A stretch of DNA of 64,000 nucleotides from assembly GCA_034231615.1 (NCBI GenBank), contig CM067306.1, forward strand, positions 31,132,617 to 31,196,616, in the 5' to 3' direction. This document shows positions 20,868-56,800 of this stretch, piece after piece. The DNA comes from Meghimatium bilineatum (lineage: Eukaryota > Mollusca > Gastropoda > Stylommatophora > Philomycidae). The position numbers and the translations under genes were made by a program. Within the stretch, counting starts at the first letter, position 1, and every line of letters starts with the position of its first letter. The notes under the pieces were generated by a model that did not search any database, was not told the DNA's origin, and saw nothing but the letters and a program-made list of their open reading frames with translations.

Positions 20868-20970
20868 GCACATCAGCAAAGTGTACATGTGGGTAAGCCA
20901 ACCAAACTTCAGAGCATATCCTCCAAGAATGTGAAAACTATGAAACATTCAGATGCACATACTGATCTTC
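20868..20970 (+). mobile_element. LINE C-terminal remnant
   Basis: One frame reads AKCTCG, then a stop, then ANQTSEHILQECENYETFR. This matches the post-RNase H motif CxCG..H..C of LINEs A and B. Broken and short. Confidence 0.65.
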
Positions 20971-21038
20971 TGATACACATATATATGAGGTACAAAACTT
21001 TATGGTACAAAACAAGAAATGGAAAACACTGCTCAATT

Positions 21039-21803
21039 CTCCATCGAGACCAGCACCGTGCAGAGGTGATGGGGCTTAGTTCAGCCATCAGGGGCTGGAA
21101 ACTAAGACTGGTCGGGCAGTCCCACTCGAGCAGGACCATAGTCCTGCCCAAGTAAGCAGAGTGCTGAAGACGGAGGCATCCAGCCAAAAGGCGCACAGAT
21201 AATCAGGATGCCACGCACAAAACACAATGGAAACATGTCTACATCTATAAATAGTTATGGTGCCAGCCCTGTGGCGGACGTTCAGGCAGGGACGGTGCCC
21301 GGCCCTATACCTCGAAAGGGCCCAACCTCAGTTACTGGAAGTCCTTCTCAATTGCCCCGAGGAGCCAGGAGGCAAGGGAATAGAGCTACTGGCCAAACAA
21401 ACAAACGACCAATAAAAATAATGCACTGGAATGCTGAGGGTGTCAACAGTAAAAGAGATGGATACAGCAAAAAATTGGAACTTGAAAATGTCCTCAGTGA
21501 AGAACAAGTTAGTATATGCTGTATCCAAGAAACACACCTCAGCAGCGACATAGCCTTCAAAATGAGAGGCTACCAGTGCTACCGGTCTGACAGAAAGGAC
21601 AGGCGAAAGGGTGGAATTCTGACACTTGTTAAAAACAATATCAGCGCATGTCAGCTGGAAGTATATATGGAAGGGGCAGAATACCAGATGCTCCACCTAA
21701 AAACAGACAGTGCAGAATTCCATCTCCTGAACTACTACTGCCCAAATGATAAACCAATGCCACTAGACACAATTCCAGACAAAGAGAGACTTATGGTGTG
21801 TGG
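21039..21803 (+). mobile_element. LINE A copy A4, 5' UTR and endonuclease part
   Basis: The most complete 5' end in the window: a ~170-bp leader, then a coding start at 21208 (MPRTKHNGN...). A low-complexity N-terminal stretch leads into the AP-like endonuclease (IMHWNAEGVNSK, CIQETHLS, GGILTLVKNN, NYYCPND). Coding is cut at MVCG (21803), where a reversed LINE A begins. The same element resumes at 24037. A probable TSD (ctgctcaatt at 21029-21038 versus ctactcaatt at 26593-26602) brackets the composite. Confidence 0.85.
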
Positions 21804-29761: not shown

Positions 29762-29834
29762 ATGGCGAATACAACGGCAGCTTTGACAGTCGGTGGAAAC
29801 AGAACGACAGGACAATCTGTTAGAACACAAAATG
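29762..29834 (+). CDS. CCT1: CCT1 exon 1
   Basis: Encodes [20 protein letters not shown] and four more residues, the variable N-terminus. It ends in phase 1 before donor gtaaga. No clear TATA box is visible in the AT-rich 100 bp upstream, and the transcription start is not determined. Confidence 0.93.
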
Positions 29835-32800
29835 GTAAGACAACACACATGTACCCTTTATTATTAATTTATGATATGTTTGTATCAAAACTCTAAATAG
29901 TTGAGTTTAAACAATAATAAGTTTAGTTTAGTTATGCCGGCACACTGGCTAGAACATTCCAGAAAGTAGAAAGAATTAATAAATTATTGTTATTGTACGC
30001 CTTATAATATTGTGGAATGTGGTCATTATTCGAGGAAACAAAAACCACAAAACGTTTAACCGTAGGAGTTATATAGATAGTAATAGGGCTAGTAATATAT
30101 ATTATTTTTATGGCAAGTCGTAGTGAAATTTGCGGTAACTACTAGTACTACTACTACGGATCAACTCTTCACACTCACTCAGTCACTGCTATAATAAATA
30201 GCACAATTGTTTACATTTTTACGAATCTGACGTCACGAATTTCCCACTGCGCATGCCCAGTCAACTATCTATTAGCCAAGTGGCAATGAACTTTCAAACT
30301 TAAAAATTATAACTTAATTTATTTATTACTGTATTATGGTGCAAGTTGCTTTGGTTGTTAGGTAATAATATAGGTATTAGCACTAAATTTTCAAATTGGG
30401 TTTATAGTATTATAAACACCACAGCTAGATAGCCCTTGAAATTTGTATTTCAACGACACCTCAACCAAGTCTGTAGGTCAATTCTGTGAAAAGTTATGAA
30501 TTTTTTGGTCAAAATTTAACGAAAAGATAATTACATGAGAACATATAATAAAATATGAACGGACTGATGAAGAAAGTTGTGACCAAGAATTGAAGCCGAA
30601 TTAACAATTTATGTAATATTTTAGTTATTTACGATAAAATATGCATAAAACTATACATTTTTGTGTCCGGGAAGGCAAGACGCATCTTTTGAATATACTG
30701 CACACATTTTCAGACATAATTGGGGCTAATTAATATTCAAAATGGTGGCTAATTTACATAATTTAATTTCAATTTAATAGACTTTTCATTTAATATTTCA
30801 ATTATTTATGATAAAATACCCTACAAACTATACATTTTCGTGTTCGGAAATGCCAGGCGCACTTATTGAATACACTGTAAAAAATTTCTGATGTAATTGG
30901 GGCTAATTACTATTCAAAATGGTGGCTAATTTGCATAATTTACTTTCAATTTAAGTCTAATTATTAAATATTCAGTTATTTATGTTAAAATACTCATAAC
31001 TTCCTAAGAGTTTTATCGTAAACAACTAAGATATTGCATAAATTGTTAACTCGGCTGTAATTCTTCGTCACAACTTACTTCACAAGTACATTTATATTTG
31101 CTTATGCGTTCTCATGTAATTATTTTTGTTATATTTTGGCCCCAAAAAATTCATAACTTTTCACAGAATTGACCTACAGACTTGGTTGAGGTATCATTGA
31201 AATACAAATTTCAAGGGCTATCTAGCTGTTGTGATTCACCTTCCCTAGTGCCTTCAGCTTCCTTGACAAAGACTCACACTTCTTCGTCATATTTGCAACT
31301 GTGCGTTTCTTTTTTGCACAGGCATCACAGTCATATCTCATCTTCTTAGGGGATGGTGATCTATTTAGTGTACCTGAGAAACAAGGTTGCATATTAAAAG
31401 TACATGAAAGAGATGATGAATCAATTTGAGTAGAATGATGTTGCAAATCATCACTGGTCAATTTACTAATAAATGATATAGGGAATTGCTCAGGTAAAAA
31501 ATTCATAAGTATGGACCAGTCTTTGTTGGCCATACTCTTTAAATGTTTCGTCAGTTTTACATTAAAACGCTTCAAAGCTGAAAGAAGACAAGATTCATTG
31601 ATACACTTATCTGGTTCTGCAACAAGCACAAGAGACTGGATCTTCCTCATTACATCTACTGGGGTATTGGTGCGGTCCAGTAACAGCTGTGCAGCATAGC
31701 CTTTCTTTACTGGGTACTCAGGTGCAAACTGAGCTACATACGCCTTCAGATCATGTATATTCTTCTTGCTTGCCATCATGTCTTCTATAAAAACAATAAT
31801 ATAAGTAAGAGTTTCAGGGTCTAAAAGAACACAATATTAAAAATTTCATTTGATAATTAAAATAAATACATTACATTATTTATTATAAAGTACAAAATAA
31901 AATTGAAGCCTCACTAACTCTAGGCAGAGATATAAATTAAGTGCTCACCCTCAGCTCATCCCTTTTGCTGCCTTGTAATACAGGATTTTAGTGTGAAAAT
32001 ATGAGCTCTCAATCATCAATGTGAAGTTTCTTAAAAGTTTTATGAGCCAATGATAATTATAAAAGTACAAGGCTAAGCCTAGAAACTCAAGGCTTATTGT
32101 AGGCCTAATTTAAATGTAACATCATTAAGCCTTATAATATTTATATAATAATAGGTATATGTCTAAACCCAACATTATCATATTACGGACTTTTCAATAA
32201 ATCTACTTTCATGAAGCCTACATTAAAAAAAAACACTTCCGTTGTCATGGCAATTGCATGGCAGTACAGACTCGTAAATGTTGATTTACATTTCACATTG
32301 TAACTACATGATCTAGATATTTATACAGCAGATGCACATATGATTTTTTAGAAAAGTCATATGTAAATTAGAGACATAAGAATTACAATATTTAAACAAG
32401 AATATTTATAACAATTGTTACCTACTATCAGCATAGCACGAAACAACAGCCGGTAAAAAATTAAAAATGGCGGATAAGTACACCCATAAAAAAGTGGATA
32501 GACATAGGTTTAGAAAAATTGAACAGATAGACTATACAAGAAGAAGATGCATTCAAAATTCATACATGTGTAAACAAATGGCTTATGAACATTAAAATAA
32601 GCATCTGGTTTTCAAATGGCAACATCTAAGGCATTAATATTCAAAAATATCAGCTAATTTTAATGAAATTCACTTACTTCAGCGTGTCCAAGAACTTGTT
32701 ATAAAAACTATGATGTTAATCCACTCGAAGAACAGATCAAACTGACCTCTGACTTGTCCCACAAATGAAAAGTATAATGTCTTTGTACTTCTAGTCACGG

Positions 32801-35800
32801 ACGCTATCGAAATGACAATAGAAAGTGGTCATATCTCGCGTGACCACAATTTTGGGTTTCAAAATGGCCGCTAATGGGATAAATATCAAGGGACATAACC
32901 CATTTTATCACTAAATTACTAAAATTATCTTACTTGCTAATGCCTAAATAATATAATTCGTTGTGACCGTTGCTCTAGTTTTGAGGTATTGCCTAACCTT
33001 TGTACTTTGTGTCATTTGGCAAGCTTAAGGTTAAGTACTTAGAGTACGGTTAGGATTAGAAATAATATTGGTATACTCTTTCTATCTACGGTCACCGCGC
33101 TAAATATAGCACACTTGACATTTTTAAACAAGCGACGCCATGGAGTTCCGCTAGAAAATCCGGCAACCAATCAAATCCCTCGCGTGATATCACACACCCA
33201 ACAAACGGCAAACGATTTTGTGCATGGCGGACATTTAAAAAAAAAGATTTGATCGATTTGAGCAGAGATTTCACTAGCGGAAATCTGCAGTCACCTAATT
33301 AAAAATGTAAACAGTGTGAAATGGGTAAAATGAAGCACTTACCTTATTCACCGGATAAATTCTCCGCAAACCATGCATTAATTATAATATAAATCTCAGA
33401 TCATAAGAATAACACAAACCATGAGCACCGATCCACTTTGTTGAAATGTGCGGGCTTTTGCTGGTTTCTGATCATGCCTCGCCCAGTGTTGCCAACTTAT
33501 TTCATCATAAAGCACCAGATTTGAGTGCTTTCTTTCGAATATTTTTGTTCAATAATTTTATAATTTGAAATAACTGGACATTCACATGCCATGAGGGGGA
33601 AGACCCCCCAACCCCCCTTTAACATTCAAATGTTATGTACCCCCCCCTTTTTATACCACCCCTCCCTCTCCTTTTTTATTATTTTTTTATCTCCTTTATT
33701 TCCCTTAAAACCACACACAACCCTAACTAACTAACCTCAGATCTCCAAAACGATTCCCGCGCAAACCGTGATATCATAACCTCTCGCAAGCCATGGCACA
33801 TTTCCGCGCGAACAGTGGATCAGCGCAACTTCAGCTTTGGGGAATACCTCAAAATTAGGTCAAATTCCACAGTGACCGTAGATATGTGGATTGCGCCATA
33901 ATATTTCTAAAGTGTGCTCACCTCGCTCCGTGTGTAGCAGGCAGAAATAATTATCGCTCATTACAAATCAAATCATTGATGTAAATTGGAAAAGAAATAG
34001 ATTAATGATTATGCATAAGTTCATCTGTGTCTAGATTTGCACTTAATGATTTTTGGGATGTGACATCACGAGCCATTAATTTCATTGGTGTTAAACGGAA
34101 ATCCGTGACGTATAAGTAAAAATGTAAACTGCTATTTATAGCGCAACGAAGAATCAAAAGCAACTTTTACCCTTTATTATTATTTATAACAAATTCTAAC
34201 CCTTACCCCCCTCTCTAATCTAAATTCTAATGCCTGCTCGTCTAGTTTGTCTCCACTGTGACTTTTGTTGTACTTTCGAGGTATTTCCTGTTGTTAGATT
34301 ACCTTATTTTCGTTATAAGTTTAAATATGGAGAAGGAAGCTTGTGAGGTAAGGTACCATGATATATTATTTATTTAAAACGATTTCATTAGAATTAGCGT
34401 TTAGGTTCCGGGGGGAAATCCATGACGTGAGGTAGTTAAAACTATAAATGGTGTGCTATTTATAGCACAGTGAAGACTTAAACTAGACTTCTACCGCTAA
34501 TGCCAAATTAATATTCTATTTCAAATAACATACTTTAATTTTGATTACAACTTCCGCAATCATACTGCAAAGGTTCGGTAATACTTCGAAACTAGAACAA
34601 AGGTCACAGTGAAGAGTTGATCCGTAGTTGCACCAAATTTGCATATAATCAATCAATGCTACTTCAACTTTTGATAGTTCTGTGTTTTAGGGGACAATTA
34701 TTTGTCTAATCAGTTGTTTGTTGTGGTGTTTGAATATCATTTCTGTGACATTTAATTTTCAGTTCTTGCTGCAATGTCAATTGCCAACATTGTCAAGAGC
34801 AGCTTGGGTCCAGTCGGACTTGACAAGATGCTCGTGGATGAGATTGGGGTAAGTATTTCAAATATTTTGGGGTTTGTTTTCATCTCCAATAATTATGCAG
34901 AAATCGGCTGTGCACAACTACGTAGCGCGTAACGGTGGCACACCATAACTACACTCCCAGTGGAGATCACGACTCTTCGTGTAGATTATTATGGAGCATA
35001 CGGAAAAATTTTTTCTAAAGAATTGAAAGCAATAGAGCTCTTTTATTCTTATATACATTAATGGGTTTCTCCAGAGTTTTATTTTATACACAGAAGACTC
35101 AACTTTGAATCATATCGAAATCGGATGTGCTGGACCAGCAGGTGCAAATAACACAGCTATGCTGTAAACTGGCAGCACAACATACTTCATGCTCCCCGGC
35201 AGAATTCTCACACAAAATGTTTATCAGAGAGTGAACACAATCAATTTTGAGCAGTGGATTACTTGGCTTGTGCGCCAGCTGCATGAATTAATGTGCATTT
35301 AGTGCTTGCCGATGGATTGAAAGTCCATCACCAGTTGAGTGTGTGGGAAATATACATGTAAAATCCCAGATGCCAGACATGTGTGACAAAATATGCGAAA
35401 AAAGGGAGAATAAAAGTTTTCTTTGTGTGTTTTTGGATTATTTCCCTGGTGTTAAATACTAAACACCAACATTGTGTTTATTATTTACCCCACTAGCTCA
35501 ATGGGGCTTTTTAATAGTGCAGTTTCAGGTAGTCCTTCCCGCAGCGCAGTAGGTTAAGATCATAATATGGTCCCCCTTGTATATCTTCGCATCTTCTGAA
35601 AACACTCCTTGCAACGGTAACATCGTCTTTATCGGTCAAAAGATAGTTCAGCACAATGACAGCCATTTTGTAGCTAGAATGCAGCAGCAGAGTCACATCA
35701 CAAATTTCTTAAGATTTTGAATCAGCACAGATTAAAAAAAAAAAAAGGGAAATGTAGACCCCTCTCCTAGGAAAGAACCAACAAAAACATCTTTTAATCA

Positions 35801-38800
35801 AAAGGCCTTTAGAAAAGAAACATGAGTAAAAGCTGTACTATGAATGCTATACTACAAATACTGTTAGTCATGTTTTATTTTGTTCTTCAATCAATCAATA
35901 TCAATAAACCCATAACCCTTCAGGGTCGTAGGGGTACCACATTGGATGCTTCAGCACACAGAGTCCTCCAGCGAATTCTATCGTCAGCGATATGGATGAG
36001 TGTGGAAATATCTAGCCCTGTCCATTCCATGATGTTGTCTGTCCATGTCTTTATTTGACCTCCTCTGCTTCTTCCACCCTCGACAGTTCCCTGCAGTATT
36101 GTTTTTGACAAGGAATCGTGCCTGCATACATGTCCGAACCATGCTAGTTTTCGTCGTTTCACTATTGAAAGCAATGGCTCCTGGACACCTGCACACATCT
36201 CTACTTTATTTCTTACGTACACATTGGTCTTATGTTCCCTATAGGAAATTCGTAGAATTCTTCTGTTGCATTTATACTCGAAAGCCTGTAATCTTCTCTC
36301 CATGTCCGCAGTGAGTGTCCAACTCTCACAACCATACAACACAACAGAAAGCACCAGCGACCTATACAGTTTGATTTTCACTCCAACACTGATGTTGCTT
36401 TTCCAAATCACAGTTAGCCTTGACAATGACGCTAAAGCCATCTCCAGCCTTATTTTTAGTTCTGCTTTGCATTTACCATCGCTGCATATACTGGATCCGA
36501 GGTATGTGAAGGTATTCACCTCTTCAAGCTTGTGTCCATTCATCATGATATTAGTCTGGTTTTCTGTGTCTCTGCTGTTTACCAAAATTTTGCTCTTATC
36601 TGAATTGATTTCCATTCCGTACTTGCTGGTAACTTTTTCTAACTTTGATGTTAATTCTTGCAATGATTGTTCTGACCCAGCTATAAGATCAATATCATCA
36701 GCGAAACGCAAGTTGCAAATAGGGCGACCTCCGATCGATATAGAAATATGTATGTTCTTCAATATACAAATATGAATTGTATTCCCACTTAACAGAAAAG
36801 TACTTCTGTATTCGTTCTCAAACTCCTACAGGTTAGCTGAATGTACTCAGGAGAATGGAATGCAATGTGTCCTGGTTTAATCTTAGCTACACCTTTTGTC
36901 CCGACAAATCTGACTTTAGCATGGTTTCTGGGTTAATTTGACCCTCTATGGGATGGGGCAGTCAACACCACACCCAAAACATGCATCATTACTTCTTACA
37001 TTGTGCACGACCGGTAACAGTGTCAGTATTCTTTGCTCCCTTTCAGGACCATGGCAACAAAACACGAGTGAGGAAAGTACCAAAATCTCATTGTAATATA
37101 TCTGGTCATCAAGAAGTTTGTGATATATTGTTTTATAAATTGGTTTAGAATGAAACATGTTAATTATGATGTCATGTACTTAAACTTATCCAATCAGTGG
37201 TTGCATGTATTGAAGTTACTGATTCCAATGTTTATTTTGTTTTGTCTCTTTAGGATGTGACTATTACTAATGATGGTGCAACCATTTTGAAGCTTTTGGA
37301 AGTGGAACACCCAGCTGCCAAAGTTCTTGTAGAACTGGCCGAGTTGCAGGATCAGGAGGTTGGAGATGGCACTACAAGTGTGGTATGTGCTCTCATTTTA
37401 TTGTTTTTTCCCTTTTTGTTTGGTTCATGGGCGTACTAGTGTTCTTGTCGATATCCAGTTGTTGTTGAGTAGATCTATTTTTGGCAGCTCAATGCAGAAA
37501 ATGTATGCATGTCTTCTGAAGTTAACTTAATGATCCATATATTGAGTTGCTGTTGTTGGTGCCTGTAAAAGTTTTTACCCTGCATTTGAGAGCAGTGGGA
37601 TCTGACATAGTTGTTTGCTTGTTTGAGAACCACAGGAATTGTGAGCAATTAGCTCTTACTTCCTATGTGTAGTGAGGTGGTCTTTCTGAGCTTTCTGTCA
37701 TTCATACCCAAGGATATTTTGGCTTAGTGCAATGCCTATTGAAAGAACCTTCTACCCAGAAGTGGTCTATAATTTTTTAGATGACCTGCTACAAAGCTTC
37801 CATAAGAGAGCCTCAATATAATGGCATGTCATCTAAGGTTTTTGGTGTGTGCCATTGGTGAGACCCACAGACGCAACCGCATTCATCTTATACTGTAAAA
37901 CCATTAACTTTTTTGTACTTTTGCCCTGTAACTTTTTATATTTTTTTTACATTACCAGTTATTTATGGAGGGTATTTGGAAAATGCAATAACGTTTTATT
38001 GGAGCTTTTTGTATATTTTAAAAAATGGAAATATTTTCTTCTGTGTTCATTCTCAAATTTCCACTGGATCTCTCTCGTTCCAGAATAATGGTCCTGCTAG
38101 ATTTCCGCAGGACATAGTCCAGAGAATGGAAATGAATTGTGGCGCTGTTTTAATTTTTGGCCAGACACATCAGTCTTCAGAGTGTCTTAATTCAGGTGGG
38201 CTTCCCAAATTGAAATAAAGGAATGGTTATTGAATGTAAAGATACTGCCGAAGACAGATGTGTTGGACCATTGGCGCAAATAAAACGACAACACAATGCA
38301 TTTCCATTCTCTGGACTATATTTAGCTGGAAATCTTGCAGGACCATTGTCCTGTTACAAGAGAAATCCAACGGGAGTTTGGGAATGAATGCTTAACCGAT
38401 TCGCCCTTAGAGCTCCGCGGAGTCGCTTCTATGTGCTGACACCTGGAGCGCCGCGGAGTCGCTTTTTTTTACATGTATCGTTGCGATCGATAGTACATTT
38501 TTTGTGTGTGCTGGATCTATCAAAATCCACGACCATTGCGTAGGTCCGTGGTTTAGCTTCTGTTTTATGTTTTAATCGGACATAAAAATTATTTATTACG
38601 ATTTTTTTAAAAATTAGCGGAGTTTTAACCGATTTTCGAGTCGCTGCCAGCTTTTTTTTTTACTTATGTCGTTGCGATCGATATTACATTTTTAGTTTGC
38701 GCTGGGTCTATTAGAAACCATGACCATTGCGTAGATCCGTGGTTTAGCTTCCTGTTTTATGTTTTAATCGAAACAATCGGACATAAAAATTATTTATTAT

Positions 38801-41800
38801 GATTTTTTGTAATTAGCGGAGTTTTAACCGATTTTCGAGCCGCCGCTGCTCGATTTTTGTTACTTGTTTCGTTGCGATCGATATTACATTTTTAGTTTGC
38901 GCCGGGACTATTAAAAACCATGACCATTGCGTAAATCCGTGGTTTAGCTTCCTGATTAATTTTTAATCTACGAGATCGGGGAAAAAATGGATTTATTACG
39001 ATTTTTTAAAAAATTAGCGAATTATTAGACCTAGTTTTGGAAATGGAAGATATTATTCATATGTACACTGATGCCGTAGTTACGATGGAAATATGCACGA
39101 TGTAGGTAATTTGCGTATCAAATATAACGTGGAAAGCAACAGTGAAGTTCTTGTTAGATAGGCCTAATGTTTCCGACAAAGAGATGGAAATGCGTGGCAC
39201 TAATTGTGATATCGCAAATTTCGCCGTAGTGATGTAGTTTTTCGAGTAGAAGTTGAGAGTTTTCTACAAAACATTGGGTCTGTACATAATCTTGATGAGA
39301 TTGCTACACGTTATGAATACTTTAGCATCATTGTCAACGATGTTTTATCAATTTGCAGCCGATCTGACAAATTTGTATGTAATATAACGCAAAGAACAAA
39401 CAAGGAAAGAAGACACGCGCTGAACATCTGCAACTGTCATTGAAATAAAACGTCATTTAAAAAAAATTTATATTATGATGGACCTGTGTATTCTGTTTGA
39501 GTATGGCACTGGAGTACAGATGACAGGTTCAACGTTTTGGGCACTTCATCCTCTTTGGAAACAAGGGGATTTGAGAATATATCTCAATATTTTCATATCA
39601 ATATGACTCCTCTACTCAACACCCCAAAGTTAAAAAAAAAATAATTTCTCCACATTATGTCAAGTTTGACAGTTTATTATTTAAAACATATATGTATTAA
39701 ATTATCTTTGATATAGGTTTATGTAAGACTATTCATTTTTCTGTTGATCTGCAAAGTCTGAGTGTGATATGATGAATAGTTTGAAAGAAAATGCAATTTT
39801 GTCATTATCATATCCATATTTTGGAGGAGTTGTGCCCCTTGCCGTAGGGATCAGGGATTGACAATTGGAAAATCTCATAAGGGTGAAAGGGTTAAGAAGA
39901 AGAAGAATGTAAAGATGTAAGTTTTGTTGATGTTATAAGTGAGAAAATGGTGAAGATAAAAAGTTCAAAAAGCAAACACAAAATTGACTCATCTAGTTTT
40001 TTTCGATGTATTCTATGCAGAATATATTGAAATGCAGCTAGATACCTAGGTCTATTCTATTTTTATTATTTCATAACTAACATTTTCATAATATTGTCTG
40101 TGAAAACAAACATAACACTTTGACCTCTCTAGGCCTAATAGTCCTACATATCAATATACCTAAAAAAAAAATGGCTGCCATTTCAAATTACTTTGACGGA
40201 TTACAGAGTAGTCACTAGATCTCTAAACCATGACATTAATTTACAAGCAATGAGTGACGAAGGCCACTGACATGCTAAAAATTTGAGTCTAGTGACTAGT
40301 AGCTGACAGCATGCTAAAGGTTAAATGGCTATTGACTTGCATAACCTTTAAAACTGAAAGATATAGGATTGGTTTCTCTTATATTACTTTTCTATTGTCA
40401 TTTTGTGCTTCAGTCAATGCCCTTTTCTGGTATCCAGTGACACTACATTAGCATCTGTTTCATATATTGCTGTGGGTGTTTTTAGTCTCCACAATTCAAA
40501 AGTTACTGAGATTGTGAGGAGAGCTCTATTGATCTTTGCTTTGCCAGGATTGGATATTTATCAGTAGCCCAGATGACAAGGTAAGGTTATCATCAAACAA
40601 TACTTTTGTGTAACATAGAAAATAGGTTGTCTGGATATCTTATAAACATTAAGCCAGAGATTGTCACAAACAAGAATATGAAATAGTTCTGCAATGGTGC
40701 GTCTGGATCATTCATAAAAGCAATGACGATCCACTGAGCATATTCATATTTACCTAGAACAGTAGTTCGTAACTGTCTTTGGTCCTCCCATATTGGGATA
40801 ATTTTTGTCCGTGGCTTCCCTCCCAAGGTGCCTTTACAAAAAGCATAAATAATTCCTTTGTTACTTTCTCATTAAATATTGTTTAAAAGGCCATTTTTCT
40901 GTGGCCGCCCCCCAACCCGTGAAGTTGGGGGGGGGGGGGGAACATATGGCCCTTGCTGAGAACCACTGGATATACACAGTTATAGAATTGCTGGGTTTTC
41001 TTCTAGTTGCTGATTAGGGAAGGATATAATACAAACAACTCTCTAAGACTAGCCGAAAAAAGGAGCGCTGGTACATTAACCATAAGTGTGTTACCGGGCC
41101 CGAAAGGGGAGCAAATAATAGCAACACTGTTTACCTTCCACGTGTGTCGTAAAAGGCAACTAAGGAGGTTATGGGATGGGGTTGGCTGTCCCATCCCATA
41201 TAGAGACCCAAAGCCATACTGAAGTCGGATGTGTCGGCTGAAAGGCGCAGATATCGCAGCAATGCTGTAAACCATGACACAACGCATTCTGTTCTCCAGA
41301 CTACATCCTGCTAATCTGCAGGAGTTTGAGAACAAACGCAGAAGAAGAAGAAATACACTAACCAGTACTTGTGATATTCCTGAGTTAAATGTAGATTGGT
41401 TATGTACAAATGTACCTGTCGGTCAGCATGGTGTATTGGTTTATATTCTCTACATAGGTGATCATTGCAGCAGAGCTACTTAAGAATGCAGATGAGCTGG
41501 TGAAATGCAAGATCCATCCAACATCTATCATCAGTGGCTACAGACTAGCATGCAAGTAAGTTAATACAATCTCATCTCGAGCACATCACACATTCTGTCA
41601 GCAAACCAGAAAAAAGACTCAACTTCACTTCCAAACTGTTCCCTTTTAACCTTTAGCAAGCTGGATTAAATTTATACTATATATTACATGCCACCGGACT
41701 GTTATGAAAATTTGCTTTAATTTTTGGTATGCATACTAGTGTGTAGTTATATTTTTCATATGGGAAATGCGAGGAAGTTGTGAAGATGTTTGTTTTTTGC

Positions 41801-44800
41801 AAAAACAACCAAACATGGGCGTATGAAAAATGCAATAAATGTTTTCTTATTGGAGATTTAAAAAAAATTGTTGCTCATTTAAATAAAGAGTTGAATACTG
41901 CAAATATGTGTGCACTTTGTTTTTATGTGTACGTATTACTCGTGTGAGGAAGTGGTAAAGTGGTATTTTTCACAAAATACAAAAACACAACACATGCAAA
42001 CATGGGTGTTGCTATAGAAAATGCAATAACTTTTTTAAAGAGATATCTACATACTTTTTGTACATGTAAATAAAGAATTGAATACAGCACATATTGGTGA
42101 AAGTTTTGTTAGAGCACATGTGATACAAGAGGCATGAGGACGTTGTAAATATGGGGGGAAAAGGGAGGAAATTGTAAAAATCTGAAAAAAATTATATTTT
42201 TTTAGTACCTTTCTTTTCCAAAGTGACAACCCTAACAGACTTTCTCACAACAAAGTCTATTGTTTTTATGAATTTTCACATCCACACAAACATAATATTG
42301 TTTTAGAAATTAATAAAACATAGATTTAACTTATGCCGAATAAAATTTGTTCTCTGGACATATACCTAGTCTTGGTTGGCAATATCGTTAACCTTTAGGG
42401 CCCTGAATTAAAAATTAAGAAACATCCCCTTGGGCCTGAATTCTTTTTTGGAAAATTTTCTTTATTGATGGTGGGTGTTTTGAAAACGTGATAACTTAAT
42501 CGCAAAACGCAATTTTCAAATCGCACATGTAACTTCTTGACGACCCTAATACTTGAGCAATGCGTGGAATCATTGATAAAATCCTCATAAATACCTATAC
42601 TTATTGTATATATATTGTTTTATATCAAAACTAGTATAAGATGAACTAAAAAAACTAATAAAACGTGAAGAAATTGCATATAACGTCCGCCCGGTAAACA
42701 CTAGGTCTATCCCGACACGCAGCGTAATTATTGTCTATGCACTCACGTGGCACCCCTGATACATATTATTTTTGTGTTTTTGAACGACTACACAAACATT
42801 CTTATCAAATAACAACATATTAAACACAAAAAACAACAATTAAAACATGTAGTTTATAAGAAATCGCATATAACGTCCGTCCGGTAAACACTAGGTCTAG
42901 CCCGACACGCAGCATAATTATTGTCTAAGCACACACGTGGCACCCCTGATACATATTATTTTTGTGTTTTTGAACGACTACACAAACATTCTTATCAAAT
43001 AACAACATATTAAACATAAAAAACAACAATTAAAACATGTATTCACGATCACTTAGCCATGCCACGCGGTACTCAATTTGATAGTAAAATATGGCTAAAA
43101 AATGGCCAACGTCGTTCCAGAAATTCCTTGACAAAACCAGCCGGTTTTCTCTCTTCTTGCAGTCGTAATGAGTAAAGTAACTTGACCTTTAAACTGCGAC
43201 GTATTCCTAGCGTCGTTTGGTGTGTTTTATACGTCACGGGATCATTACTTTGTGAAGTTCCGTACTCGGGAATCGGGCGATATCCTATGTAGCGGGATTG
43301 CGCCTGCAGGCACAACGGAGCTGTTCTCATAGGCGCATTATTGCAACCGCAGAGTCGTAAAGGTTAATGCATTAGGCAGCAAAGACATTAGTTATTCGCT
43401 TTGTTTGCATTCATTCAGAAACTTCTTCAGTTTAACAGGATATAATCCTGAGAATAGAATACATTGTGTCATGGTTTCAGCAAACTAAAATAGCTTACCC
43501 TTTTGAAATTCAACCATGACATTCAGATCACTTTGACCCTCTATGGGATACCCAATGCTTCTTAGTCATCTCATATGGCATGCATGACATGTAGCAATAT
43601 TGCTATTCTTTGCTTTTCTTTTGGCATCCTGCAACTCCTATACTCTTCTTCTGCGATCATTCTCCTGTAGAATTTACTCCAGACTATGGTATGTGTGTCA
43701 TGGTTTACAGTTCATCTGTGATATCTGCAATTTTTTGCTGAACACTTTGGATAAAAGCATTGACTATGGTTCACTGACCGACCCTCTATGGGATAAAATA
43801 GCAAAATCCAAACCTCCTTAGATGACTTATGCAACATGTCTTGCAGGTAACAGTGTCACTTCTTTACTCCCCTTTCGTGCACTTCAACACACTACTAGCT
43901 GACCTGCTTATGATCCCAGTGTCTTGTGTTTGAAGAGATTAGTTTAGTTTTTCAAATGATCTTATGTGATAAATGTAAACTGTTTGAATTAATCTCCACA
44001 GGGAGGCAGTCAAGTACATTCAGGACCATTTGACAATCTCTGTGGATGATCTCGGTCGGGATTGCATTGTTAATGCCGCAAAGACCAGCATGTCCAGTAA
44101 AATCATTGGATCGTATCCTTTATTATACCTCAGCATATTCTTTAAGGATGAAGTGTTATTACAAATATTGATTATGCTATGTCTACAGTTATAAAGCATT
44201 TAGTTCTGTGTTTGTTATAAAACTCCTCTTGGTTATCCGGATATAGTTCTGAGAATGGAGTGCATTGTGTCATGGTTTACAGCTTGTAATATATGCGCCA
44301 TTTACATCATGACAGTGTCACTAATCTTTGCGCCTGTTTTGGGCCTCCGCAACACTCGGTGTTTATTAATGTCTTACAACATTAACAGTGTCAAAATACA
44401 TTGTTGGAACCAATCTCCACACAATGAATAAGCTTCTGGCTGATAATAAACCATCCTGCTCAAGTGTTAACAGGCCGAAAGGAAGGCAAAGAATAGGGAC
44501 ATTGTTACCTGCCATGCATTTTGTATGAGGCGACTGAGGAGGTTTTTGAGATGGAGTTGTTATCCCATAAGATGGTCAAAGTGACCCAGAAACCACGGTG
44601 AACACACGTGTCAGGCTGAATGGTGTGGGTATAAAATTTCATCTGTAAACCGTGACATTCCCAAACTACATCCTGTAGGAGTTTGAGAACAGATGCAGAA
44701 GATAAAGTTCCATTTATGGTTTTAAAATTACAGCAAATTATTTTTTTCAGGGATAAAATTCACTCATAAAGATAAAAGGAGTGTTGATTTAAGAAAATGG

Positions 44801-47800
44801 CAATAATTGCAGTTTAAATTAGCGCTGGATGGTGTCAGGAATAGCTGGATAGCTCCCCTCAGGGCCAGATAAATGGGATACATTATATGGAACACAACAA
44901 TAGCTCACAAACACATGCATATATCACACAATGGCATTGGGTCAAAGGGCATGAGCCCATGGACAGCTGGATCAGCAACCAACCAAATTACAAAATAATA
45001 GTGATGTAAGTGTGTGCACAAATTTGTGGTGAGCATGGGTTATCGAGATGTTAAATGGAATTTGACTGCAAGCATTTTGAAGCAAACTATAGTAAAATTA
45101 TATAAATAACTAAATGGTCGGAGGGTGCCCAAATAAGTGGAGGGTGCCGCAGTAACCAAAGTAACAAATAGTAATGCAAAAAAAAAAAAAACGCAAATGC
45201 ACCCAACTGCAGAACCAAATGACCCCTACCACCAAATGTCACGCAAGGAACAAACCATCATTTTCAGACTACGAACTGGTCACAACAGACTGAGAAGTCA
45301 CATGTTCCGAAAGCTGAAGATTGGTGAGACAGACCTGTGCAACTGTGGACTGAGCCCAGAGACTGCAGAACACATTCTTCATGCCTGTCAACTCTACCAA
45401 GAAGAGAGGGAGAAAATATGGCCTACTGAGACGGCACTGCTTCCAGACTTGAGGGGTTCCATGGATGACCTGAAGCGAATCACACAATTCATTGAAGCTA
45501 TTGGTGCTGTAACCTGATATCTGACTGAAGAACGATGAAGAAGAAGAAGAAGTAATGCAAAATTAGATAAACACCTTACTGGGAATTCCTAACTATGAAC
45601 AAATTTAGATGAAAAGGTAATGTTAAACTCCCTTTCTGTCATCTAAATTTGTTCACAGTTAGGTATTCCCAGTAACCTGTTTATCTAATTTTGCATTACT
45701 ATAGTTTTCTAATGTAGTTGCAAGAAATCTGGCAAATTCACATTCCCAGCAATTTGATAAGTTTATTATAGTTAATATCCCTAACAGTTGCTAGTGATGC
45801 AGATTTCTTCTCCAACATGGTGGTAGATGCTGCTAATGCTATTAAAACTCCAGATGGAAAGGGAGGTTACCGTTACCCCATTAAAGCTGTGAATGTTCTG
45901 AAGGCTCATGGCAGAAGCACAAGGGAGAGCATTCTAGTTCAAGGCTATGCTATCAACTGCACTGTGGCTTCACAAGGTATGTAGACAATTTCGGTCTGGT
46001 ACTGTCTTTTTTTATGTATAGCACTGTCCTAGATGATAGTTTTGGTGTATAGGATAATCCTGAAACTGAAAAAAATGATTAAACTTGTTTTCCATAGAAA
46101 ATGTAGGTTGCTTTAGTTCTGTAAAATGTATACGTCACTAATACATGTATTATGTTAATTCTGCATTGCATACAAATTACTGTGTTAGTGACTCGTAATA
46201 AATTTGTAAAAGTTATCAATAACTAACTTGAACACATACTAATAAAAATTTTGGGTAGGGTTAGTGGTAGCAAGCAATTCGTGAGAAATTAACATGCACT
46301 ATATTCGCTAAAAAAAAACCAAATTTGTCGGGCCATTAATGTGACACACACAAAAAATGGCACAACACCACATTTCCATTCTCTGAATTATATCCTGCTG
46401 AAAATCTAGTAGGACCATTGTCCTGCTACAAGAGAGATCCAACGGCAGTTTGAGATTGAACGCTGAAGAAGACTAGTTTCTTAGCTAATTAGGTCATTAA
46501 CAAATTTGTTCTTTACTACACAAATATACCATCCTGTTGAATTAATTTCTAATATTTTCTTAACATTGTATCTAATAAAGCCAGCCTTCATTGTCATACA
46601 GCATAAAGACATTTACTTGTTAACTGACATTTCTTTCAGCGATGCCCAAGTCAGTGCAGAATGCCAAGATTTGTTGCTTAGATTTTGGTCTTCAGAAGAC
46701 AAAGATGAAACTGGGAGTCCAGATTTTGATTGAGAAACCAGAGCAACTTGACCAGATGAGACAAAGGTAGATTTCATAACATTCATTTAGAGTAACATGA
46801 TCAGATGAGACAAAGGTAGATTTAATAACATTAATTTAGAGTAACTTGATCAGATGAGACAAAGGTAGATTTAATAACATTAATTTAGAGTAACTTGATC
46901 AGATGAGACAAAGGTAGATTTAATAACATTCATTTAGAGTAACTTGACCAGATGAGACAAAGATAGATTTCATAACATTAATTTAGAGTAACTTGACCAG
47001 ATGAGACAAAGGTTGGTTTTATAGCATTAATCTTATCACCTCTCTCAATCTGGCAATAGTTCCTGTATATTCTGTGGATGTTGTGTGTTGACACATTCAG
47101 TGTTAACATCATGCTGTAGTCGGATATGTGAGGCTGAAAGGTGCAGATATCACAATTAATCTTAACCATGACACGATGCAGTCCATTGTCTAGACTATTC
47201 TGCTAATGTGCAGAAGTTTGAGAATGAGCAAAACAGTATTGATGTTTGACCAAGAGCTAGAAAACTGCTGCATCACAACTATAGGCTAAAATATTGGTTA
47301 TAAATCAAAGTCTGTAAACTTCAGGCATACTCACATATTCAGTGTCTCACAGCAGATTCAGTGTCTCCCAGAAGATGTCGAAGGGTTATGTATGCTGATA
47401 GTTTATGCGGCTCTCTGGTTAACAATACTTCTTACTCTGCCCAGCAGGTTGCTAGTCCTGTTCATACTGTGCTGCTCTTGGTGATTTCTCCAAATTGCAG
47501 TGTAGATCTTCACGTTTGAAGTTAAATGTGTACACAGCACATCCAGTTTTCTGACATGAAATGACATGCACAAACAGTGTTGCTATTCTTTGCTTCCCTT
47601 TCTGAGTTAGGCAACACACTGAAAAAATTCAAAGATTTTAGGTGCATTAGATGCTTGTCAGCTGATATTAATATTTATTACTAATATTTGACTAATGAGA
47701 GTCAAATATTAAAAATACATTTTATTTTGGAATGGAAACACAATCTATATTAAACTCTTACTCTGACCATATACTTGAGGATTGTGAGATACAGAATAGC

Positions 47801-50800
47801 ATAAGAAATTAGACATCTAATTGTCTTGTGATGAAACATTCTTTATGATTTAGATCATGATATCTCATCAGACACTCTAATTTTTTTCTGAGGACATGTT
47901 AGAATTTGTTTGCACAAAATTCAAAATGACTATACAGACCTTGGATGACAGGATGAAGTTACTATGCAACTGTAACCTTGATGCTTTCTCAGCAACTCAA
48001 TGAGCTTCCGTAGACGCCAACGACATTACGCTACCAGGGCCAGTCTGCGTCTAGTCACCTGTGTTACTATACCCAGATTCCTCACTGTGGAATTACACAA
48101 AGTTTAGCTCACATGACATAGAATTCTCCCCACACGAAACTAGGAATACTGAAGGTGAAATTCCTTTACACATTACGATTTTAAGATAGAGAATGCCGGC
48201 CGATTTTGCCAGCAAATTTTTGAAACGACTTTTGTAGATTTTCGACGCCATATTTTACTATCAAATGTAATACCATGGTGCTGCATGGCATGGTAATTGA
48301 TCATCATGGAAAGTAATATCTACATGTTTTATTTGTTAGTTGTGTGTGTTGTCATATTATAAGAATGATCATTTATTAATTGAATAACACAAAAACTATC
48401 TGGTGCCACGTTTCACATGGAAAATAATTACATTGTATGTCAGTCTAGACTAAGGATGGACATTATATGTGATTTTTCATGTTTTATTAGTTTGTTTAGT
48501 CCATATCACATTATTTTGGATATGAAACATATATATGACAGGAATAGTTATTTAGGGAGATTTTGCCAGTGTTGCTTGCCCATACACTGTTCAAGCATAC
48601 ATTCAAGTTTTATACATTTCCATCCAAGAAATTTTTAAATTGTAGTTTTAAGATTTCCCCCTCAATTTTCAACTTTAAAAATTGCTCACAATTGTCATAT
48701 GCATACAACCCCCCCAAAAAGGATTATATGCATTATTCAATCCTTTATTAAATGTACATTTTGATATTTTTACAAAGTTATCGCCTTTTACCACTCACCA
48801 AAAATAATGCACATTGCCAAAAAATAATCCATGCTAAGGGGAGAAAATTGTGTAATTTTAATCCAGGGTCCTAAAGGTTAAGCATGCAGACAGTGGCTGG
48901 AGTTGGTCTAATATGATAAGAATGAATTTGATATTTGTGCCTAGACATGCAGGTAGGCTTCCTTATATGGTGAGCATTGTGACCGGACAAGCGATGGTCT
49001 GAGCTGATGTTCTGAATGCTCTTAGGGTGCAAGGATGAGTGTCAGATGCAATAAATACTTGTGAACTTGCAACTCTGAGCAGACTACAGGAATACCATGT
49101 CAAGAGAGGCATGTTTAAACAAGTGTTATGCAGGTAACCAAAAAGGACTGGTAAACGAACACAGAGTAGGTGTAGGTGTGGTCACTCGCTACACTATGAG
49201 GGATTATCTTGAGGAGATCTGAGCACTTTGGTTTGATGAGCAGTGAGGGCAGCTCAAAATTGAGCTTTGACTAACCAGGAGCTCTTCTAGATGAAAAAAG
49301 GTCTGAACATTGAAAAAGCTGACAATTAGAAATACTAGAAATGACTGACTATAGGCATCACAGTAAAGGATGGTTAACAATCATTGCTGAGATGTCCTGA
49401 ATTAAGTCATTCTCCAGTAATTTTCCTGCATCCTGATCTCATACACTTTTACTCATCTTGGCTCATGATTAATTTTTTCTTTGCCCCTATTTTGTGTTGC
49501 CAGCCATTGAAAAGCATGGAATAAAGTAAGCCAAATATAAGATAAGCGCACTAGACTATCCCTTTGAAGAACCTGTTTTCTAGAGATACTAGTAAGAATT
49601 AGTACAAGATGGGAAATGGAAATTGTAAAGGAAATATGGCAATGTGTATTGACGATCAACCTGTAACTTAATGCTATAATTAATCTGGCTACCATTTCTA
49701 GATTTTTGTGATGTGCCAATGTCCTGAATGCAAAAAAAAAACATTTTTTCAGAAACAATCTGCTTTAGTCTAGAAAGGTAACTGTTTGTAGACATTACGT
49801 TGTAGACATTACACAATTTCAATCACCCATTTGTTGTCTGCCTGAAAGGGGAGCAAAGAACATCAACACTGTTTACTGTTGTTAGCACTGTTTACGTTTG
49901 TTCATATTGTAACAGACAACTAAGTAGGTTATGGAATGGAGTTGGCTGTCCCATTTTTCATATATGTTAAAGGGGCACAAAATACCATTATGAAATTGGA
50001 TGTGTTGTGCCAAAAAAGGTGCAGATATCTCAGCAAAACTGTAAACCATTACATATGCATTATTCTCTCCAGACTACATTCTGCTAATCTGCATGAGTAT
50101 GAGAACGGATGCAGAAGAATAGCATAAGAAATTAAACATCTAATTGTCCTGTGATGAAACATTCTTTATGATTAGATCATGATATCTCATCAGACACTAA
50201 TTTTTTTCTGAGGACATGTTAGAATTTGTTTGTACAAAATTCAAAATGACTATACAGACCTTGGATGAAGTTACTATGCAACACTGCTTTCTCAGAAATT
50301 CAATGAGCATGCAAAGAAAGATTGACACAAGCAGTGGCTGGAGTCGGTGAAGTGGTCTAATCTACAAAATTTGACTTCTATTTTACATTAATGTATGGCT
50401 TGGAAACATGGATAATGTACAAACAAGTAGAAGATATAAATTATGTCTTTGAATTGTGAATTCCGCCGAAGATGGATGTGTTGGGCCATTGGCACAAATA
50501 AAACAGTGACAAAGCATTTCCATTCTCTGGACTACATCCTACTGGAAATCTAGTAGGACCATTGTCCTGCTGCAAGAGAGATCCAATGGGAAGTTAAAAA
50601 TGAACGCTGAAGAAGAAGAATTGTGAATTTAAAAAAGAATGAGAAACTCATGGCAAGAAAAGAAAACACTAGTTTTTGGAAAAAGGTCTAAATGGAAGTA
50701 AAATGTTTTGGACATTAAAAGATGTGACACCTTACTTGAAGGTAGAATTGAGGGGAGACAAACAAGAGGTGAGCAGAGATATAAGTGAGAGGAAAATATC

Positions 50801-53800
50801 ATGAGATAGAAGGATATTCTAAAGGTAAAGATAATATGAGTTATGAACCAGTGTCATATCGCACTGTTTCTCATAAGTGCTCTGCTGTCTAGTCAGTGGG
50901 TGACTACAAATCGCCTGACTATCATTGCCTACCGCACTTGCTCAGTAACGATTATCCCATTCCTTGACCTTCCCTGGGCATTAGCAGATGACCTAACAAT
51001 ACACTACCTCTGCTGCCTATGGGTACAATTCAACATAGTGAACCACCAAGACAGATGTTTGAGTTTCATTGTAGCCAATTGTGCGGAGACAGCACTCGAT
51101 GATGATGATGGCATAGTATACTACATTCTATCTTTGATCAGTCTGTTGTTACTCTACATGTGATTCTCCCTCTACAGAGAGCTAGACATCACTAAGGAGA
51201 AGATCCAGAAAATTATTTCTGCTGGTGCCAACGTCGTTCTGACAACTGGGGGCATTGATGATCTCTGTCTGAAATACTTTGTGGAGGCTGGGGCAATGGC
51301 TGTCAGAAGATGCAAGAAGGCTGATCTCAAAAGGATTGCTAAGGCAACTGGAGGTAAGTTTAGTTATACCTGGAATCTGATGTTATATTTGACCTGATAA
51401 ATTATGTTTAATTAAATCTGCAATTTGGGCTTCATAGTCATTGGGCCTCAGTGGTTATTGATTTGATTCCCAGCTAACAAGGGTTTTCTCTAGATTTGTT
51501 TTCTATCATACATGCCTTTGGAATTGCCATATCCTCAGAAAATGGGTACCAGAGGAAAGCATCCACAGTGATGCGAACCATATCACCCTTAGAATACTCA
51601 CAGTATAGTAAAGGCCTTCTACTGCATATCACATTCTTTCTGAAACTCCTGTTGGTTAGCAGAGTGTAGTCCAGAGAAGTGTCTTTTATGATGATGCATT
51701 CTACTTCAGCATGATTTTTGTGTCACTTTGACCCAATATACAATGGGGGCAGACAGCCTTATGGCAGTTAAGTTTTGCTAATATATATATATATATATAT
51801 ATATATCAATAAAAAATCTCTAATAATACCTATTCTTTTTTTTTATGGATGTCAGAGTTGGACAAAACAGCATAAATGGAGAGGAGAATACATGCCTCTG
51901 AAAACAAATGTTAGAGACAAATATTGCACATAAACTATACAGAACATAAAACCAACATATTCGCGAGAAGCAAAGTAAATACTCTTGGAGGCCAACAATA
52001 ACATCTCATGGCAGTGGTGAGGCGTTGCAAACTTGTGTGGTTTGGCCACGTGATGAAGCACGATTATATTTCCAAAACTATATTGCAGGAAACAGTTGAG
52101 GGTGGAAGATGAAGATTAGGAAAGTATGGATTGATAATATTAAAGACTGTACATGATTAAGATTCTCCACACTTAAAGAACAGAGGCATGTTGAAACTTT
52201 TGTGCTGATGGTTCCATAGTGGTACCACTACGACCATGAAGAGTTATGGGATGATGAGTTTTGCTATTGTTTACTCCCCTTTTGGACTTCAGCAACACAC
52301 AGGTGCATCAAACAAATAGAATATCAGTATTTGTATGACTTGAAATAGAAACCAAAATAATAGCAACACTGTCATGTTATAAGAAACTATGGGGTTTGGG
52401 TTGTGGATTTGGCTGTATCCCATTGATGGTCAACATGATGACTGAACAGCCATGCTGAAACCATATGTTTAAGACCAGGAGGTGCAGACAACACAGCTTA
52501 GATATAAACCATGCCACAAAGCATTCTAGACCACATCCTACTAATTTACAGGAGTTTGAGAATGAACACTGGAGTATTTTTGTAAATTTCTTCTGCAGCT
52601 ACATTTTTGATGACCCTGGCTAACATGGACGGAGAGGAAACATTTGAGCCTTCTTATCTAGGACATGCAGATGAGGTGGCACAAGAGAGAATCTGTGATG
52701 ATGAGCTTTTGATTATCAAGGGGTAAGTTTATCTGTGCTGCTAGACATGTGTATACATTTAGTAGATTTTGTGTGTGTGCAGTAGACTGCTAATGGGAAA
52801 ACCAACATAGTTGCAACATAACATACCAGATCTTAGAGCAGATGTCTCCTTTTTGAAAAATAAACATGTTAAGAGTAACACCAAAACTGTGCCATATAAA
52901 ATGATTATCATACCATCACTATGCTACCAGTGTCAAACATGGATACTAACAACAAAAGACAAGAGAAAACTGGTTACAACACTTTGTCTACGTAGAATTC
53001 TCAGAGGAAAAATAAGACAGTATCAGAAATAAAGGCAACAGATTAAGTGGTTCTCACATGCTTCCAGACTATCATCAGTGCTCCTCAGAATGCATTACTA
53101 TACTAACACAATAGCTACAGCGGCAGACCATGCAAAAGATGGATCACAGAAATAAAAGAATCAATGAAAACAAACATATGAAGCACACAATAAAGTCATC
53201 TCCAAAGAATTTGTCTACCCATAAAGGTTATAAAGAGAAAAAGATAGATTGCTGTTTCAGCCATTGTTGTTTTGATCCCTAGGAATTGTCAGATGAAGAA
53301 ATTATTTGTTGTGTGCAATGAGATGGTTTCTTCAGTTTTATTTCATACCATCATGATGGTGGAGTCAAATGAGACCCAGAACACGGTCCTAGATGCCAAT
53401 GTGTTCATGGTGCCCTGACTGAACAGGTGGCACATGGAGTTGTGAAAAGCATCTCTGCAGGATGTAACAATTTCCTGGGAGAGCCCATCAATCAGTCAAA
53501 TATGTTAGCCCTGCATAATTTGAGAGCTCCCTTGCATGGTGCTGAATGCATAGCTGGCTGCTCCACCCGTACCACTGACCATGCTTCAAAGCTTTGTTGC
53601 TATGGACACCAAACAAGAAGGTATGCTTGGCAATAGAGTTGAAGCCCATGACTCCCAACTCTGCAAGTCATGAAAATATAGAAAAGCAAAAATCCCTACA
53701 ATTTTCATCTGAGTAGGAGACTTCTTTTCAATAAAGCTCTGGAGAAACTTCCATATTGCACATAAGAGATAAATGCTCCTAATTCCTCAATACCCAGAAA

Positions 53801-56800
53801 TCAACTCTCAGAGATTAGTCTTCTACTCTGGGATTTGACCTGTGCATTTCTCATGCACTCACCACATCCACTTGTGATGACCTTCCAATCCATCGCCAGG
53901 TGCAGACTGTGTTTTGACATTTTTCATTACCCAGGATTACATGTTCAAGTTGTTACATACACAGCACTGCCCTCTAGTGCATTGCCTTTTCGAGATTCAT
54001 TGTTTACTCTTAATCATTGCCATAACATAGTGAGATATACCAATATCATGACATTGGCTGCCCCTCTAATGCTTCTGTATTTTGTCTGATCGAAATGAAA
54101 TGCACAAGTGTCTTACTTCACTGTGATGCTGGATGTGTTGGAGTAGATGTCTCTGAGATAATTCTAATTCCACCTCCATAGATATGAGTCAAAAATCGTT
54201 GGCCAGGTACGCAGCAAGAGCAACTGTATTTCTGTTTCCAGGGTGCATCAGGAGGAGGTACTTTTAGGATCTTGATTATCTGCCAACCATGTGTCTGCAT
54301 ATAAGGAAGATTTTGTGGGAGTGAGAGAACTAACAAAAATATGATTATAGTAAGGGCCACACCCCCCACTAAGCAATATGATTGTTAAGGTGGACAAAAA
54401 ATATTGTTTTTTAATTTATACGGACCTTTACGTTGAAACACTGATTGAGCATATAAGAATGGGGTGGGGGGGGGGGGGGGGGTTGTATGGCATAGCCACC
54501 AGTGGGGTGTATATGCATCCGGCAGCAGTTCTTGCAACTGTAACAGACATACATATTTATTAGTAGCTGGTAAGCTAAACAGTTTACCAAACATGAATCT
54601 TCTGTTTTTTGTGTACACCTTATTAGTACAAACTATTACTGCAGTCGCACCAATTATCAATTCACACTCCATGTGTTGATGAGACCCAAAAGGGGAGCAA
54701 AGAACAGTCAGCTTACCTTCCATGCATGTCATAAGAGGGGAGTTTTGTGTCGAAGTTGGCTGTCCTATCCCATATATGGTCAAAGGACCTAGAAACCATG
54801 CTAAAGTAGGATGTGTCCAACCCAATAGAGCAGAGATATCAATCGAAGCAAGCCTCTAGTAAACCGTGACACAATTTATTCCGTTCTCCGGACTACATCC
54901 TACTAATCTGCAGGAGTTTGAGAACGAAAATGAAAGAATAGTCACTGACGTGTTTTTTTTTAGATATGCCGAGATAATATAAATAATATTGATTGTGGTA
55001 TTTGATATTTGTAGACCAAAGGCTTGTACAGCATCATCTATTATTCTGCGTGGTGCAAATGACTTTATGGTAGATGAGATGGAACGTTCAATTCATGATG
55101 CCCTGAGTGTGGTAAAACGTGTTCTGGAGTCTAAAAAAGTAGTGGCTGGAGGAGGAGCTGTAGAAGCTGCATTATCAATTTACCTGGAAAACTTTGCCAC
55201 GTCTTTGGTAAGGATTGATGATGCATGTTAGAGATGATAGTGCTATATGTTGTTACTTCAGAAACAGAAGGGATGATAATTCTATATGTTGTTACTTATA
55301 ACAAGTAAGGATGATATTACTCTATATTGTACTTATAACAAGTAAGGATGATATTGCTATATGTTGTTACTTCAGAAACAGAAGGGATGATAATTCTATA
55401 TGTTGTTACTTATAACAAGTAAGGATGATATTACTCTATATTGTACTTATAACAAGTAAGGATGATATTGCTATATGTTGTTACTTTCCCGGCGAAGACG
55501 GATGTATCAGACCATTGGTGCAAATATAACGGTGACAACACATTTCCATTCTCTGGAATTCTAGTAGGACAGAGATACAGCGTGGGTTTAAGAATGAACG
55601 CTGAAGAAGTTGTTACTTTAGACAGATGATTGTGCTATATGTTGTTACTTCAGAAATAGTAATGTAGATACATAGTACTATATATTATTACTTCAGAAAC
55701 AGTATGGATGATAGTACTATAATATGTTGTTACTTCAGACACATTAGAGATGATAGTGCTATATGTTACTGTATAAACAGTAGAGATGAACAATAAATTT
55801 CAGGTTCCTGTACATCTACCAAGGCAAACAACAAAAGGGGAAACAATTGCTGTGATGTGAGCAATAAAATGACAGCTTTACTTCAGATTGTCTGACAGAA
55901 AGTACAATGCAACCTTGCAGAATAAACCCACTCCAGATAGAAATTGGATATACTGGGTTGAAATGTATAAATACCTGCTCTGGGACAAATCTAGTAGCAC
56001 TATGTATTTATGCTCTCCCGAACCAAATCATATGGAAACTCATTTCAATTATTTGAGAGCATTTGCAAAAGAAGATCCAAACATGTATGCGTGATGTTTA
56101 AATAATTAATTGTCAGTACTGTTTTGTGTAAATACCCGTTGACTCATTTCTTCCAGGCCAGCAGAGAACAACTCGCAATTGCTGAATTTGCCCAATCTCT
56201 CTTGGTGATCCCAAAACAGCTGGCAGTCAATGCTGCTCAAGATTCCACAGACCTGGTTGCCAAGCTACGAGCTTTTCACAACACTTCCCAGACACGCGCA
56301 GAGCATAACGAGCTGAGATGGTGAGTTTAAACACTGCAAGAATTTTAAAATTGGACTCTTCCTTAGCTGATATTGCTGCGCTCTATTTGAGACATACTTG
56401 TCCAGTGAGGGTAGATTAAACAGTAACCTTTAGTACGCTGCATTAAAATTGTAGCTGTCCCCTGTCATCTACATTTTTTAAAAGTTACATGTTATTTATG
56501 AAGGGTATTTTGAGGACACATTTTTTTTTTTTTTTAGATTTTTGTAGAATTGTGTTTATGGAAATAAAGGAATGGTTACTGAATGTAATGATACAAGGTT
56601 TATTGGTGTATGTGAGAAAATGGTTACAGCTTAGCTGCAATCAACACATTTGACTATGGCTTATGGGTCTGTTGGACCCTCTATCAGAAGTCGCTGCACA
56701 AACCATGAATCTGCAGTGGCTCCTCTGCATGGTGGGTGGATATAATTGGTGGTAATATCCAAGTTTTAAATAATTATGGAAGAGTTTTATGCTTAAATTG

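Follow-up and report, generated by a model that had tools for sequence, protein, structure and literature searches.

How one 5′ splice site comes to be chosen when it has been copied, almost letter for letter, several times into the intron behind it is the question raised by the end of exon 7 of the CCT1 gene in the window analysed here (the whole stretch of 64,000 nucleotides). Most work on donor choice relies on duplicate sites made by engineering, and the array described below is a natural counterpart, in which four copies identical over 22 bases stand at exact 49-bp steps and a wrong choice is fatal to the CCT1 message. As a natural test it can serve to show to what extent a donor is chosen by its position alone, and it bears on whether the tandem repeats known as mirages, described for amphioxus, occur more widely.

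The host gene and the exon concerned are placed as follows.
29762..57686, plus strand: CCT1 (T-complex protein 1 subunit alpha; TCP1-alpha), 12 coding exons from start codon to stop codon
46640..46766, plus strand: exon 7 of CCT1, 127 nt, followed by intron 7 (phase 2, 4411 bp)

The CCT1 exons were located with a human TCP1 sequence, and their edges were then fixed by frame and splice signals. When spliced from the window, they give a complete frame of 557 codons with no internal stops, the product of which scores 940.1 bits against TIGR02340, the NCBIfam model for T-complex protein 1 subunit alpha, whose cut-off is 800.2, and matches PDB 6qb8_a at 895 bits; in the same NCBIfam profile comparison none of the models for other CCT subunits reached its own cut-off. 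Judged by this predicted product, the gene is CCT1/TCP1-alpha, the subunit-alpha equivalog model having been passed above its cut-off and above the other subunits, and both the gene name and the exon number given in the initial annotation are borne out by that score and the 12-exon model. The genome comprises 1,612,235,226 bases in 32 contigs, the window lying within one of 68.0 Mb (C9). Among the 41 best candidates scored in a whole-genome protein search, 23 matches to CCT1 were obtained, 12 of them inside CCT1 itself at 84-100% identity and the remaining 11 elsewhere in the genome at 30-60% identity; five of the loci elsewhere were typed, each having another CCT subunit as its best match, and neither a second CCT1 gene nor a spliced CCT1 copy was found among those 41 candidates. 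One CCT-like match (L003, C24:26381680-26382963), 30% identical to CCT1, runs for 436 aa in a single open frame with no introns and is maybe a retrocopy or an intronless CCT gene. Within CCT1, intron 5 (44113-45794) has the donor GTATCCTT, with TATCCCTAAC close upstream of the acceptor, and looks like a U12-type (minor spliceosome) intron by the consensus of that class.

The tandem repeat at the end of exon 7 was called by TRF at 46740-47031 with a period of 49, 6.0 copies, 93% matches and 0% indels, which agrees with the earlier description of the exon 7 donor followed by five further units at exact 49-bp spacing. By unit-by-unit alignment the last unit is traceable to 47033, its exon-like part ending at 47011, and the 27 bases beyond 47033 match the array unit at no more than 10 of 27 positions. 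The parts of the array are these.
46740..47033, plus strand: 49-bp minisatellite, six units, each joining 27 bp from the end of the exon to 22 bp from the start of the intron
46740..46766, plus strand: coding exon part of unit 1, with CAA (Gln) kept where the other five units read TAA (variable column 5)
46767..47011, plus strand: five intron-exon modules of 49 bp each, with a mean of 2.60 differences per 49 over 10 pairs
47012..47033, plus strand: terminal diverged intron part, with 5-6 differences in 22 against each of the other five

The layout can be written E1 + 5 x [I-E] + I2, namely one exon end, five intron-exon modules and one diverged intron end. With six 49-bp units and identities of 42-48/49 between different units, it is no chance repeat, and even the terminal intron part resembles the other five more closely than chance allows for this base composition (P at most 1.5e-4). 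The units differ at ten columns, one of which is C in the coding copy and T in each of the five exon-like parts; the coding copy is barred from this T because it would make an in-frame TAA. Each junction between units carries AG (ATTTAG/AG), after which an exon-like stretch follows and ends in a donor. In a whole-genome DNA search with the array (1.61 Gb) the locus occurs once, and the one further match (69% over about 200 bases, C17) sits in an unrelated array with some 30 units of 45 bp and looks like a chance resemblance. A dispersed element was considered as the source of the array and rejected, the exon part having no copies outside the array in the window at up to 8 mismatches in 27, and the intron part five scattered window matches, at the 6-mismatch limit (6/22).

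The donors provided by the six units are listed with their scores from a donor matrix.
46767..46768, plus strand: native donor AAG/GTAGAT, score 6.46
46816..46817, plus strand: decoy donor 1, AAG/GTAGAT, score 6.46
46865..46866, plus strand: decoy donor 2, AAG/GTAGAT, score 6.46
46914..46915, plus strand: decoy donor 3, AAG/GTAGAT, score 6.46
46963..46964, plus strand: lost donor, AAG/ATAGAT, score -3.50
47012..47013, plus strand: decoy donor 4, AAG/GTTGGT, score 5.85, with lower predicted accessibility (probability of being unpaired 0.005 and 0.002)

This unit-by-unit reading agrees with the initial annotation on GT at 46767, 46816, 46865, 46914 and 47012 and on the single AT, which stands at 46963; its count of four decoys in five keeping GT also holds, but only three of these carry the native sequence, the last being GTTGGT and not GTAGAT. 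To call the whole an array of competing donors is a fair description of its anatomy.

What the use of a decoy would do to the message follows the early stop that had been predicted for it. Exon 7 ends in CAA AG and exon 8 (51178) starts with A GAG, and any decoy spliced to exon 8 reads CAA AGG TAG; when the five non-native donors were each spliced to exon 8 by script, every one gave 269 aa and then TAG. Only the native donor gives the 557-aa product, and the statement that the first site must be preferred stands as well. Skipping of exon 7 shifts the frame and leads to a stop after 228 aa. By the general rule of nonsense-mediated decay, decoy-spliced CCT1 transcripts should be degraded, the TAG that they acquire lying 702-898 nt upstream of the last junction.

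It has to be noted that the native donor does not stand out from copies 2-4. Copies 1-4 are identical across the donor from -14 to +8, and the predicted probability that the donor 9-mer is unpaired is similar in all four (0.06-0.13 under two settings). RNA structure that hides the decoys was rejected as the reason for the choice, predicted accessibility being similar for copy 1 and copies 2-4 and lower only for copy 6. Among the ten U2-type donors of CCT1 the native exon 7 donor has the lowest matrix score (next 6.81), and by U1 pairing energy it is the third weakest (-6.5, after exon 4 at -5.6 and exon 3 at -6.4). Nor are the decoys the strongest pseudo-donors of intron 7, in which 13 of 236 GT sites reach the native score, three of them decoys; the ten non-decoy sites that score at least as high as the native donor all lie beyond 48150, more than 1.3 kb away. 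With donor letters and predicted accessibility alike in copies 1-4, local letters do not explain which donor is chosen, and the likeliest cue is the distance from exon 7's own acceptor.

Arrays of this anatomy have been described before. PMC3087553 defines mirages as tandem duplications, resembling minisatellites, across the exon-intron boundaries of amphioxus genes, reports them in two globin genes, BflGb6 and BflGb9, and cites the case of Adh3, with units of 10-72 bp. According to the same text, RT-PCR and the Adh3 data suggest undisturbed splicing although many mirage units carry AG/GT, and two haplotypes had six and three units (PMC3087553). A second report adds a mirage in PGBD5, whose splicing its authors infer to be normal, and mentions troponin C as well (PMC3902484). 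The CCT1 array resembles the amphioxus mirages in being a tandem repeat across an exon-intron boundary of a coding gene with the splice signals copied, in repeating a 3′ exon boundary, as does that of BflGb9, in having a unit length within the Adh3 range, and in the divergence of outer units (PMC3087553, PMC3902484). Each of its units spans the boundary with 27 bp of exon and 22 bp of intron, a splice dinucleotide is present in many and not all units (GT in four of the five extra ones), and a diverged outer part (5-6/22) accompanies homogenised inner modules (mean 2.60/49). The array thus has the anatomical features of a mirage, and CCT1 keeps an intact 557-aa frame through the first donor. 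It is a true, tidy example of this known kind in an essential gene, a class in which the initial annotation had not placed it. Unlike the amphioxus mirages of Adh3, BflGb6, BflGb9 and PGBD5, it has CCT1 as its host gene, and what is unusual about it is the likely non-amphioxus host, the placement in an essential gene present once, and donors so similar that position can be singled out as what decides between them. At 1.61 Gb the genome exceeds the roughly 0.5 Gb of amphioxus genomes, which makes another lineage likely.

Two further kinds of boundary repeat invite comparison. In human segmental duplications, boundary minisatellites with units averaging 30 bp and four copies can change splicing, according to PMC2812944, and these variable internal tandem repeats share with the CCT1 array their place at exon-intron boundaries; as described there, however, they belong to young paralogs in which new introns formed, whereas CCT1 is single copy with no new intron evident. 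The Rogers model of intron gain, with its potato RdRp case, similarly has a tandem duplication across an exon-intron boundary multiply the splice signals, as the CCT1 array does (PMC4974935). Unlike in that model, the extra copies in CCT1 appear to lie wholly inside the old intron with no intron gained, and intron gain by tandem duplication was rejected, a single intron 7 joining exons 7 and 8 in frame. For a boundary-spanning repeat in CCT1 itself, no published case was found in a literature search made mostly outside subscription papers, such repeats being reported for amphioxus and human.

The array is, quite probably, a minisatellite grown across the exon 7/intron 7 boundary of CCT1, of the mirage kind and a neutral by-product, with donor 1 used nearly always. 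Under this explanation, the spliceosome would pick the first donor because, among the copies, it closes the 127-nt exon at the shortest distance from that exon's acceptor (exon definition), position being invoked because the letters and the predicted pairing of copies 1-4 offer no preference; the reading frame, open for 557 aa, suggests use of the first donor. Transcripts that use a decoy would be removed by nonsense-mediated decay, and with that removal expected, the array would cost little and drift. Between unit 1 and units 2-5 the exon-derived parts show 1-3 differences in 27 and the intron-derived parts 1-2 in 22; the former are not clearly better kept than the latter, as expected without selection for the decoys. 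What counts against this explanation is the occupancy model attributed to Eperon in 1993, according to which, reportedly, the intron-proximal one of several well-filled donors is favoured, the opposite of what CCT1 needs.

As to the history of the array, the layout points to an old duplication and a burst of copying that came later. The simplest order, read from the present units, would start from a presumed single-donor ancestor, in which an early tandem duplication would have produced two copies (E1-I1 and E2-I2, E for exon end and I for intron start) that then diverged, the middle module I1-E2 being multiplied to five at a later time by slippage or unequal exchange. Against such a simple two-step history, unit 6 resembles the other units far more in its exon part than in its intron part; compared with unit 5, it shows no difference in 27 in the former and six in 22 in the latter (Fisher P 0.005), a contrast for which gene conversion or some constraint would also be needed.

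Other readings of the array give it a function. In one of them, decoy use is controlled, with unit number setting its rate, and decay of the resulting transcripts tunes the level of CCT1. Three decoys are identical to the native donor across 22 bases, the native donor is the lowest of the ten U2-type donors by the matrix (6.46), and all decoys yield the same early stop; yet by U1 energy the native donor is not the weakest, the decoys show no sign of selection, one of the five lacking GT and another having a different donor, and the amphioxus cases are said to splice normally (PMC3087553, PMC3902484). Such regulated unproductive splicing seems to us quite improbable. The suggestion made earlier of a tunable source of unproductive splicing is unsupported here, and the amphioxus reports state that regular splicing is undisturbed (PMC3087553, PMC3902484). 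Much the same low probability is given to the copies acting as a landing pad, where U1 snRNP would bind them uncut and help to define an exon with a weak donor. The matrix does score the native donor as weak, four more U1-like sites lie within 250 bp, and a downstream donor can recruit SRSF1 and aid the upstream acceptor, as stated in PMC8724738, but the argument is indirect and the U1 energy of the donor is just the third weakest of ten. Also unlikely is a joint claim that would make the array an inherited dial outside cephalochordates, with unit number either strengthening exon 7 through more U1 sites or leaking transcripts into decay, so that the output of CCT1 becomes allele-dependent. The same claim, held with the same reserve, has near-identical donors in an essential single-copy chaperonin gene distinguished by position alone. 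A regulatory role of the array is possible but unsupported.

That the array is instead an intermediate of intron/exon change, its exon-like parts between AG and GT being on the way to a new exon or a boundary shift, is considered very unlikely. It would fit with the AG found at every unit junction (ATTTAG/AG) before an exon-like stretch with a terminal donor, and models of this type have been proposed for mirages (PMC3087553) and for intron gain by tandem duplication (PMC4974935), but the decoy donors, when joined from exon 7, all lead to an early stop. We give still less credence to an assembly artefact, with a real unit number other than six, or of one. Tandem arrays are frequently mis-assembled, and the draft genome of amphioxus contained one mirage in a wrong assembly, according to PMC3087553; here, however, the units can be distinguished at ten columns, and the array is short and lies within a 68-Mb contig of a 32-contig assembly.

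Tandem arrays are frequent in the sequence examined, with 61 merged arrays of period at least 10 in 264 kb. When the 16 TRF arrays of the window were placed at random, at least one of the 22 CCT1 junctions was touched in 57% of trials, which makes some array at a splice junction less surprising; the exon 7 array alone covered a donor in 4.9% of trials. A survey of 41 exon matches (82 edges) in the CCT5, CCT8, CCT7, CCT4 and CCT2-like loci, or 106 edges with CCT1, took match ends as approximate edges, with the CCT2-like row and one CCT7 row as merged pieces and two further CCT loci left out. No second boundary-spanning array was found at the 82 approximate edges of the five other loci, and the idea that mirages are common in this genome is not supported; an overlap was flagged only at CCT1 exon 7 and in CCT7, and in the latter the match had overrun the donor, with the array beginning after it. 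The CCT7 array itself (L036 and L037 on C1, 40 kb when joined, in which the donor is at base 19405) has a 36-bp period and starts 26 nt past the donor. Donors with an array start within 30 nt number 2 of 47 (CCT1 exon 10 and CCT7) against 0.33 expected (P 0.043, post hoc), so the case for crowding of arrays just after donors is weak.

The CCT1 exon 10 instance is another minisatellite at the start of intron 10 (55233-55486, in the region 55208-55530), about 25 nt past the exon 10 donor. At 55305, 55342, 55419 and 55456 it carries CAA/GTAAGG, which by the matrix scores 8.33, the native exon 10 donor reaching 7.89, and use of these decoys would end the protein at 440 aa, with a stop 237-388 nt upstream of the last junction. 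The 25 bases past the native exon 10 donor align to this array with a score of 24, compared with 12-16 for the other ten donors (shuffle P 0.05 with the hexamer held fixed), and the intron 10 minisatellite may be an old, worn mirage.

Upstream of CCT1, at 11695-26235, several copies of what is presumably a LINE overlap or lie nested within one another, with frames for reverse transcriptase and RNase H-like frames on both strands. An intron 5 frame at 45137-45517 (region 45137-45562) resembles the C-terminal end of these copies, followed by a GAA-rich tail, and looks like a truncated LINE end. Also outside CCT1, a 40-bp tandem array of 12 copies with 97% matches lies at 8539-9016.
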